From Chroococcidiopsidaceae cyanobacterium CP_BM_ER_R8_30 (GTDB lineage Bacteria > Cyanobacteriota > Cyanobacteriia > Cyanobacteriales > Chroococcidiopsidaceae), in NCBI GenBank assembly GCA_019244235.1, contig JAFASY010000297.1, positions 1-64,000 of the forward strand: a stretch of DNA of 64,000 nt, in the 5' to 3' direction. The stretch's first letter is position 1, and every line of letters begins with the position of its first letter. Under the pieces are notes generated by a model. That model was not told where the DNA came from. It saw nothing but the letters and a program-made list of their open reading frames with translations, and made no database searches. Positions 3,030-5,645 of the stretch are shown here, in pieces. Made by a program: the position numbers and the translations under genes.

Positions 3030-3704
3030 TTACCCCATCTTACCCTGGCTAACAACTGAAACAAACCCGATCCTATTCAGAGGCCAAAAGCGAAACCAGG
3101 CGCGACCAACAATGTTCTTTCTTGGCAAGAAGCCCCAAACATGGGAATCATTGCTGTCGTTGCGATTGTCCCCCATGACAAAAAATTCTGCCTCAGGCAC
3201 CACCTGTGGTCCCCACTGGTAGTTTGGTGGTGCGGCAATATAGTCTTCTTGCAAGGGTTGACGGTTGAGGTAAACTTTGCCACGGGTAATGCTCAGCGTT
3301 TGACCGGGCTCGCCAATAACACGTTTGATGAAAGCTTGATCCTTGGCGTATCCCAAGATTTGTAGTTGCTGAGGCGGCTCAAAGACCACGATATCTCCGA
3401 TTGCAGGTGATCGCCAACGATAAGAAATTTTTTCCACCACCAGGCGATCGCCCATCCGCAAGGTCGGTAGCATTGAGTCAGAGGGAATGTAGCGCGGTTC
3501 GGCAATAAAGACCCGGATCAGAAGTGCCAAACACAAGGCGATGATAACGAGCTGAAAATTTTCTTGTTGGCCGCGCCATAGCCGCAACCATAGAGGAGCT
3601 TCTGTCGAATCTTTTTCCTTAGAAGTCATAGAATTTGTCGGACTAGCAAGAACTCTCAACAATACTCGATATATTTTGGCTCTAAAGCTAGCGTTTTTGT
3701 GCAA
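3030..3704 (-). CDS. lepB: Signal peptidase I
   Basis: Membrane-bound serine protease that removes signal peptides from exported proteins. One membrane segment at about residues 52-68 (VIIALCLALLIRVFIAE) precedes the catalytic serine in YIPSDSMLPTL (Ser77 from the TTG start). The lysine of the Ser/Lys dyad is in FIKRVIGEPG (Lys127), and box E is GDNRNDSNDSHVWGFLP. The chosen start is TTG at 3704 because GGAGGAG lies just upstream; an internal ATG at 3629 (MTSKEKDS) has no visible ribosome site but is also possible. Length is normal for a cyanobacterial type I enzyme. Confidence 0.95.
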   Translation of the reverse strand: MHKNASFRAKIYRVLLRVLASPTNSMTSKEKDSTEAPLWLRLWRGQQENFQLVIIALCLALLIRVFIAEPRYIPSDSMLPTLRMGDRLVVEKISYRWRSPAIGDIVVFEPPQQLQILGYAKDQAFIKRVIGEPGQTLSITRGKVYLNRQPLQEDYIAAPPNYQWGPQVVPEAEFFVMGDNRNDSNDSHVWGFLPRKNIVGRAWFRFWPLNRIGFVSVVSQGKMG

Positions 3705-3957: not shown

Positions 3958-4440
3958 TTGAGGCACCTGGTAAGCAAAGTGAAGAGTAAGGGAAGAAAGA
4001 TTCGGACGCTGAAGACTGTGTTGGTACTAACAATTGACATCATTCTTAAGTCTCTAGGTGATGTCAATCTCAGTCATGGCATGAAACACGTTGGCAAAGT
4101 AGATTTTTTCAACCCTGGAACTTTTCTTGCAGATGGGTTTCAAGTATTCACCAATGTTTGGATTTTACTTGGGATTACACTTTTGATTGGGTATTCGCTG
4201 CTGGAACTGGCAGGGCTTTCCTGGCTCGACCTGAGTTACATGCTCCCTATGACTGCATTTACTTACGTATTGACCGCCTTCTTGGCACAGTGGCTCCTGC
4301 ACGAACATATCTCTCTCACGAGGTGGGCAGGTATATCTGTGATCTCACTCGGCGTCATTATTGTTGGCTTAGGCGAACGTAAACAACAAAAAATTCCGAA
4401 GGCAGAAAGCTCCCGATTGACGTACCGTGCTCCAAGATGA
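3958..4440 (+). CDS. EamA/DMT-family half-size transporter
   Basis: 160-aa membrane protein with an SMR/EamA-like layout: hydrophobic helices at about residues 20-35, 65-85, 90-115 and 120-140, ending in a basic tail. MKHVGKVDFFNP and the last helices (WLLHEHISLTRWAGISVI) fit half-size drug/metabolite transporters that act as dimers. Substrate unknown. The start is uncertain: TTG 3958 opens the frame, GTG 3979 is an alternative, and neither has a good ribosome site. The stop codon lies inside a ~105-bp direct repeat (4436-4540), so the native C-terminus may have been altered. Confidence 0.7.
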   Translation: MRHLVSKVKSKGRKIRTLKTVLVLTIDIILKSLGDVNLSHGMKHVGKVDFFNPGTFLADGFQVFTNVWILLGITLLIGYSLLELAGLSWLDLSYMLPMTAFTYVLTAFLAQWLLHEHISLTRWAGISVISLGVIIVGLGERKQQKIPKAESSRLTYRAPR

Positions 4441-4540
4441 GTGGCAGTAAACAATTTTAACTCTCACCAAAATCTCTCAACCGCTAGCTTCACTGCCGTG
4501 TTCTGCCGCTGACATCCCAATTAGTTCCAATACATCTCCT
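4436..4540. repeat. Direct repeat, left copy (acetyltransferase 3'-end sequence)
   Basis: About 105 bp that matches 5541-5645 at roughly 90% by eye; both share the core AACTCTCACCAAAATCTCTC. On the minus strand it reads as the last codons of the CatB-like acetyltransferase (LELIGMSAAEHG..ASG stop). It is therefore a detached copy of that gene's 3' end plus trailing sequence. Confidence 0.8.
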
Positions 4541-4575
4541 TCCGCAAAGAACGCCTCATTGGGCTGCTGGTGGAT

Positions 4576-4977
4576 CTATGGGAACAGCCTCAAACGAATC
4601 CAGAGTTGTCGTGCAGCTACTTGAGAAAAGCTGTTCATCTCCAGACACTTGACAGTAACTCTTCCAATTGAAGTGATGCCTACAACCATACCAGACTCCA
4701 CGTCGACCTGAAAATGCTCGTTCCATCGGTCTTGTCTTGGGTGGAAAAAACGAATTTTAGTGTTGGAGTTGGAATTTATGCCACTGATACGAGTTCCTTT
4801 ACGGAGATTACAAGAGCGACAAGCGAGGGCTAAATTAGATTCGTCATCTGCACCTTGTCTATAGAGTGGAATAATATGCTCCACTTCAAACGGGAAATTG
4901 AATACAAATTCAGGCGCATGACAATACTCGCAGCGATGCGTGGCGCGGTCTGCAACCACTGTGTAGTAAGGATTCAT
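4576..4977 (-). CDS. HNH endonuclease
   Basis: 133-aa HNH nuclease. It has a zinc-type CxxC (CEYCH, residues about 17-21), then EHIIPLYRQGADDESNLALA giving the His and Asn of the HNH fold, and CRSCNLRKG as the second Cys pair. The C-terminal part (FHPRQDRW...GITSIGRVTVKCLEMN...ARQLWI) is shared with the HNH protein at 27595-28020. Its ATG overlaps the stop of the upstream 119-aa gene (TAATG), implying translational coupling. The pair lies between two ~105-bp direct repeats. Such standalone HNH proteins are common in cyanobacteria and their biological target is unknown. Confidence 0.85.
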   Translation of the reverse strand: MNPYYTVVADRATHRCEYCHAPEFVFNFPFEVEHIIPLYRQGADDESNLALACRSCNLRKGTRISGINSNSNTKIRFFHPRQDRWNEHFQVDVESGMVVGITSIGRVTVKCLEMNSFSQVAARQLWIRLRLFP

Positions 4978-5336
4978 TAGCTTGATTGCTGCATCAATGC
5001 CGATGTTCGGGCTGTGGCAGCTCTCAATTCAGCATCAACAAGACTATCCAACTCTGCTTGTTGTTCTAGAGAAAATTCTTGACCGTGGTCGCGCGCTGTT
5101 CGCCATAAACTCATTAATTCAGATAACCGTTTCTGCTGTTCAGCACCGAAGAACGAATCGGGACGAAAATTTTGGATAATCAACAGCGCACTGAACTCGG
5201 TTTCCCCCAACTGAGTTGTCAATGCATCCAGAGCTTGTCCTGCCGTTTTGCCAATCGATTGCTTGTCGCCTGCGATGGCACAATATGATTTTTCACCATT
5301 TGCATCGGAGATTGGCAGGATAGCTACAGTGGTCAT
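4977..5336 (-). CDS. Hypothetical protein coupled to HNH endonuclease
   Basis: 119 aa, soluble, not recognised as a named domain. The N-terminus (MTTVAILPISDANGEKSYCA) looks like beta strands; the rest is helical and charged, including FSLEQQAELDSLVDAELRAA. This helix resembles LTKEEQQELFALRQAADQL in the partner of the other HNH gene (27173-27598), so these partners may share a helical module. It is upstream of and overlaps the HNH gene. A partner, adaptor or antitoxin-like role is only inferred from the coupling. Confidence 0.6.
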   Translation of the reverse strand: MTTVAILPISDANGEKSYCAIAGDKQSIGKTAGQALDALTTQLGETEFSALLIIQNFRPDSFFGAEQQKRLSELMSLWRTARDHGQEFSLEQQAELDSLVDAELRAATARTSALMQQSS

Positions 5337-5540
5337 TTTCTCATCTTGAGGTCATTTGCCTCAAATTATAGCTCCAGTGAAGTATCAGTTAGTACGCTGA
5401 GGCTGCTAACAACCTTTACACTCCACCAGCAGCTTCTTCAGTCCGCTGTCCCAGGATTATTAACTTGCTCTCACTAATAACTTGGCACAAGGCGAATCCA
5501 AAACACTATCTGTGCCAAGAGACTGAGGGATAAGGGCAAA

Positions 5541-5645
5541 GATGAGCGGTGGTAAACAATAGCAACTCTCACCAAAATCTCTCAACCGCTAGCTCCACCT
5601 CCGTGTTCTGCCGCTGACATCCCGATTAGTTCCAATACCTCTCCT
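5541..5645. repeat. Direct repeat, right copy
   Basis: Partner of 4436-4540. Bases 5582-5645 are the true 3' end of the acetyltransferase gene; 5541-5581 are its downstream flank. The two copies bracket the HNH/119-aa gene pair. Confidence 0.8.

Follow-up and report, generated by a model that had tools for sequence, protein, structure and literature searches.

A direct repeat around a cyanobacterial HNH endonuclease gene pair is very probably the trace of two decayed integron cassettes

The stretch of 64,000 nucleotides that was analysed (hereafter the window) very probably contains a decayed two-cassette CALIN, read on the minus strand. The first cassette would consist of an acetyltransferase gene and its attC (6232-5528), and the second of a gene for a 119-aa protein, an HNH endonuclease gene and a further attC (5527-4420). 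The assignment was made because a covariance model of cyanobacterial attC-like sites (R1) matches both copies of a direct repeat in the window, and because sites of this type lie head-to-tail, covary as a hairpin and adjoin divergent integrase genes. In this way, a puzzling duplication of a gene end is explained as ordinary integron cassette anatomy, and an attC which overlaps the 3' end of a gene is seen to be able to masquerade as a duplication of that gene. The kind of structure is already known, since CALIN as well as cyanobacterial integrons with their own attC type were reported before, and the locus is a small decayed example of it.

The direct repeat (4434-4540 and 5539-5645) is 107 nt long, ungapped and 90% identical between the copies, which are spaced by 1105 nt. 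When a 121-nt query from the right copy was searched against the 5.54-Mb genome (E < 1), two copies were found, both in the window. In the right copy, 64 nt (5582-5645, minus strand) belong to the 3' end of the acetyltransferase gene and the other 43 nt lie past its stop; the left copy has no acetyltransferase gene attached. This confirmed three statements of the first-pass annotation, namely that a repeat of ~105 bp exists, that its right copy is the true 3' end of the acetyltransferase gene with its flank, and that the left copy is detached. Read on the minus strand, the acetyltransferase gene comes first, followed by one repeat copy, the 119-aa gene, the HNH gene and the other repeat copy. 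The annotation had placed exactly one two-gene unit between the copies; the 119-aa/HNH pair is indeed located there, but the ~190 nt which separate the right copy from the 119-aa gene also contain a damaged attC core. All features of the locus are given in Table 1.

Table 1. Features of the cassette locus and its flank in the window.
Feature	Position	Strand	Evidence
Signal peptidase gene lepB, last gene on that side shared with relatives	3030..3704	-	Peptidase_S26
EamA-type transporter ORF, on the opposite strand	3958..4440	+	PF00892, E 3e-6, partial, just below cut-off
Degenerate attC ending the HNH cassette (rest of the left repeat)	4420..4506	-	R1 22.7 bits, E 6.5e-5; R2 10.2 bits
Detached 3' coding end of the acetyltransferase gene (first part of the left repeat)	4507..4540 (34 nt)	-	32/34 identical to 5612-5645
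HNH endonuclease gene, 133 aa	4576..4977	-	PF01844, E 7.3e-14
119-aa protein gene, first of the HNH pair, no known family	4977..5336	-	ORF; homologues in cyanobacteria
Core of another attC, truncated and of the type found after the HNH pair in G024	5401..5449	-	R2 partial match and local alignment
attC of the acetyltransferase cassette (most of the right repeat)	5528..5611	-	R1 52.7 bits, E 3.3e-15; R2 30.8 bits
Gene of the first cassette: Vat/CatB-like hexapeptide-repeat acetyltransferase, 216 aa	5582..6232	-	Pfam and NCBIfam matches

The model R1 was built from five cyanobacterial attC-like sites, none of which came from the window. On the 64 kb it matched both copies of the repeat and nothing else. 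The attC accounts for 73 of the 107 nt (~70%) in each copy, with 64 of these 73 positions identical between left and right. An Rfam search gave no real match. When family and class genomes were searched at the DNA level, the non-coding half of the repeat was found in distant cyanobacteria beside unrelated genes; an azoreductase gene (named by eye from its sequence), for instance, adjoins the attC copies of L012 and L022 in genomes G018 and G250. Matches to R1 were obtained in 265 of the 388 cyanobacterial genomes sampled, including genomes without a detectable integrase, which suggests, on the basis of this one model, that cyanobacteria very commonly carry attC-like sites. Applied to 650 kb of mostly non-cyanobacterial (mostly proteobacterial) DNA, R1 gave nothing above 15 bits.

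Copies outside the window read RCTAAC-AAGTCGATG-AAGCGG ... CCGCTT-ATCTTGGTC-GTTAGGC. Judged by their sequence, the RCTAAC and GTTAGGC ends and the inner boxes are the R''/R' cores and the L boxes of integron attC. Variants of R' in relatives include GTTAGGC and GTTATGC, and R'' is AAC. The bottom strand of these sites folds into R and L stems and shows bulged bases. In an alignment of 81 sites, 88.6% of the stem cells were paired, a count which leans towards the model since the alignment was fitted to its structure (slid controls reached 21-41%). The AAC/GTT cores were nearly invariant in this alignment, and double-changed cells were threefold more frequent than in shuffles (166 observed vs 53), with the same leaning towards the model.

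A deep search of four genomes yielded 11, 15, 36 and 52 sites. Among neighbouring sites within 4 kb, 38 of 40 pairs were on the same strand (p 7e-10) with a median gap of ~1.35 kb, and G015 displayed 13 close gaps where 0.9 were expected. Integron integrase (IntI, TIGR02249) was detected above cut-off in 122 of the 388 genomes. Among the matches listed, the R1 sites within ~10 kb of an integrase point away from it in G152, G293, G311, G223, G367, G207 and G026, and G152 harbours two integrons, each with at least 10 R1 sites in a run. An attC array pointing away from the integrase is the textbook integron layout. It was also considered that the palindromic element could be a non-integron mobile repeat (MITE or REP-like) which happens to sit 3' of genes. 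Numerous copies across numerous genomes would fit such an element, as would the scatter of copies over separate contigs in the window's own genome, where 11 attC-like sites were found, some with intact cores (L089, L101). However, the same-strand head-to-tail spacing, the position next to intI with an orientation away from it, and the conserved AAC/GTT cores combined with covarying variable L stems are all predicted for attC and not for a MITE, which leaves this explanation with a close to negligible probability.

In several genomes, attC-like sites occur by the dozen in several separate clusters (52 in G250, 36 in G015; also in G152, L190 and L192). They are more dispersed than the single large array that is known from Vibrio. 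No integrase was found in G250 at E 1e-50 among the matches listed. In the window's genome (assembly 97% complete, 328 contigs) no IntI above cut-off was detected, the top TIGR02249 matches being below 58 bits and skipping profile positions 176-231. A complete integron would have intI and attI beside the array, and with no intI detected in this genome the locus does not qualify as one.

Both window sites are on the minus strand, 3' of minus-strand genes. The consensus cores of attC are RYYYAAC (R'') and GTTRRRY (R'). The right attC shares 30 bases with the 3' end of the acetyltransferase gene; its R'' core is GCAGAAC (5605-5611) and its R' core is degenerate (CTTATCC at 5528-5534, vs GTTRRRY). 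The left attC has retained the R'' core GCAGAAC and has lost the R' core. Taken by itself, the left site is weak with both R1 and R2, and its identity as a putative attC rests mainly on its 90% likeness to the right site. Despite their scores with the structural model, the window copies fold as weak partial hairpins only, with several pairs broken. Since the R' core is damaged in both sites and no intI was detected in the genome, the two cassettes are probably immobile.

The integron account needs one extra event. The shared sequence reaches 34 nt upstream of R'' into coding sequence, and these 34 nt in the left copy translate like the tail of the acetyltransferase (GDVLELIGMSAAEHG vs GEVLELIGMSAAEHG). 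An attC alone is not sufficient to explain this. The integron integrase cuts inside R', and therefore it cannot have made the boundary of the left copy 34 nt upstream of R''. The claim that the left copy is a duplicate of the gene end thus holds for these 34 nt and not for the rest, which is attC. One explanation would be duplication only: the acetyltransferase gene and its 3' flank would have been copied in tandem, the HNH pair captured between the copies and most of the second gene later deleted, the resemblance to a recombination site being incidental. The coding tail in the left copy and the presence of just two copies in the genome agree with this. The 3' flank, however, is an attC which is also found beside other genes, in arrays and next to integrases, and duplication as the sole account is contradicted by the attC ends carried by the HNH pair in G024, G197 and G355. 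Duplication only is thus considered very unlikely, while a duplication in the form of a second cassette may be part of the history without replacing the cassette account.

In the cassette account, each cassette would originally have been a small circle of one or two genes with a single attC. The folded bottom strand of the attC would have been recombined by an integron integrase from elsewhere, which set the cassettes in tandem, as proposed here from integron biology. The repeat would then exist because the cassettes bear attC of one type at their 3' ends, and not because a nuclease copied its neighbour. Most simply, the 34-nt coding end would be what is left of a second acetyltransferase cassette which once followed the HNH cassette and was fused to it by ordinary deletion. 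The third core points in the same direction. R2 matched it partially at 5401-5444, with E 0.29 when the window was searched and 0.032 when a 7-kb stretch was searched without filters, and its local alignment with the attC of L127 gave a score of 34, reached by none of 1000 shuffles. Since this core resembles the attC which follows the HNH pair in G024, another HNH-type cassette end was presumably once located between the acetyltransferase gene and the pair. The array would once have been longer, by the second acetyltransferase cassette and one more HNH-type attC, and deletions away from the integrase cut points would have trimmed it. A remnant of the HNH cassette's own attC was sought in 4541-4575, and the signal there was not above that of shuffles.

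The genes of the two cassettes are also found as cassettes elsewhere, the HNH pair in G024, G197 and G355 and the acetyltransferase in G250. Homologues of the 119-aa protein were identified in 55 of the 388 cyanobacterial genomes, and an HNH homologue adjoins the 119-aa homologue in most of the 30 loci examined. In the window, the 119-aa gene and the HNH gene overlap by a single base at their stop/start junction (TAATG). The HNH gene is complete, since all 133 residues align with most homologues. In G024, G197 and G355, an attC of classical form lies ~10-20 bases past the HNH stop (e.g. GTACAACAATTGCGGT ... GACCGCAACTGTTATGC). The pair of G024 lies inside a single-strand run of six R1 sites, and in G015 an attC was found just upstream of the 119-aa gene. 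A conserved nuclease pair using the integron cassette route was thus identified. Many other genomes have the pair with no attC detected next to it, and it is therefore probably not restricted to integrons. In a locus of G015 (L011:753-1575), the HNH gene is broken at about residue 67 by IS-like transposase ORFs and the 119-aa gene is largely intact.

The first-pass annotation had regarded the HNH pair as a mobile unit whose end is marked by the repeat and which left the neighbouring gene intact; this is supported. Its mechanism is not supported. It had proposed that a homing-type HNH module was inserted beside the acetyltransferase gene, carrying or making a duplicate of the end of that gene. 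The HNH nuclease fold is common among homing enzymes, and the 34 nt of acetyltransferase coding end are truly in the left copy. But most of what the copies share is attC, a class-wide family with unrelated neighbours, so that the shared part belongs to a dispersed repeat family, which the annotation itself had named as evidence against its mechanism. Furthermore, the widely distributed pair occurs in many contexts and ends in its own attC in the three genomes examined with attC, and the homologue of the acetyltransferase has the same attC without an HNH pair. The annotation had also asked whether repeats of neighbouring genes flank other HNH pairs. Several do have flanking direct repeats, and the one that was tested, in one genus, turned out to be an ordinary dispersed repeat, of which each genome had 15-23 scored copies; none of the other HNH pairs was seen to be flanked by a duplicated end of a neighbouring gene. 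From these data, a homing-type insertion is judged extremely unlikely. In genus g65 (G270:C192, G289:C528, G289:C671 and G196:C1:3405364-3425283), the HNH pair and its neighbours are surrounded by HIP1-rich dispersed repeats, about one per kb and for the most part on the same strand. These repeats are array-like but without AAC/GTT cores, and possibly represent another cassette-like system or plain dispersed repeats.

The 119-aa protein gave no match in Pfam, NCBIfam or PADLOC. Similarity of the HNH protein to PtuB of the Septu system was detected in its HNH domain, though weak (PADLOC E 2.8e-12). The partner of PtuB is the PtuA ATPase, whereas the partner in the window is a protein without family. 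Membership in Septu was rejected, as no PtuA ATPase is encoded beside the HNH gene and its partner has no match in the three databases. A TATAAT-like motif ~50 nt before the 119-aa start is common to L011, L127 and the window. As this motif is kept upstream of the pair in other genomes, the pair probably has its own promoter, a function predicted from the motif. A search for the 119-aa protein on plasmids found none. Tentatively, the pair could be an uncharacterised two-gene defence or toxin-antitoxin-like module which is passed among cyanobacteria in part as an integron cassette and has a promoter of its own, although this assignment is more doubtful than not.

The acetyltransferase is nearest to the Vat/CatB xenobiotic acetyltransferases, though it remains under the cut-offs of those families. 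A single close homologue was found in the 388 cyanobacterial genomes (G250:C78, 81% identical). It is followed by an intact attC which is part of a run of three sites, and no HNH pair lies beside it. With the remaining homologues, the alignment stops at about residue 180. A scan of genome contigs with the acetyltransferase gave just general hexapeptide transferases with 37-49% identity.

Integron cassettes are a known bacterial route for collecting genes. The R1 family shares with them the R''/R' cores, the L stems, the bottom-strand hairpin, the head-to-tail arrangement on one strand and the association of each site with one gene or two-gene unit. The window differs in that both of its sites have lost the R' core and that the left one is fused to the stray 34-nt coding end. 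With CALIN the window shares at least two attC (by R1) with genes and no integrase nearby or detected in the genome, but it has two sites only, both degenerate and called with R1 instead of the model of IntegronFinder. CALIN are defined as clusters of attC sites lacking an integrase (IntegronFinder 2.0, PMC9024848), and their origins have been discussed (PMC8618304). Cyanobacteria are among the taxa with their own attC covariance model, and integrons were already reported there (PMC8352920). Cassettes often carry acetyltransferase genes or two-gene toxin-antitoxin units (PMC8618304).

On the other side of the left repeat, the EamA-type ORF extends into the repeat with its final 7 bases. It may be a truncated gene, since the family matches it only partly, it starts with TTG and it ends inside the left repeat. 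The order tm2-T2K-lepB is conserved in family genomes, and no window gene was found beyond lepB in them. An empty-site comparison by DNA search in the family gave distant matches only and no strict empty site. In G002, which belongs to another genus, an attC is located just before lepB in the same relative orientation, and therefore cassettes have occupied the position next to lepB in two genera. The region before lepB in that genome (L207:1978-5930) contains attC sites together with small gene pairs that resemble, as named by eye, XisH/XisI, HicA/HicB and PIN-type toxin-antitoxin pairs.
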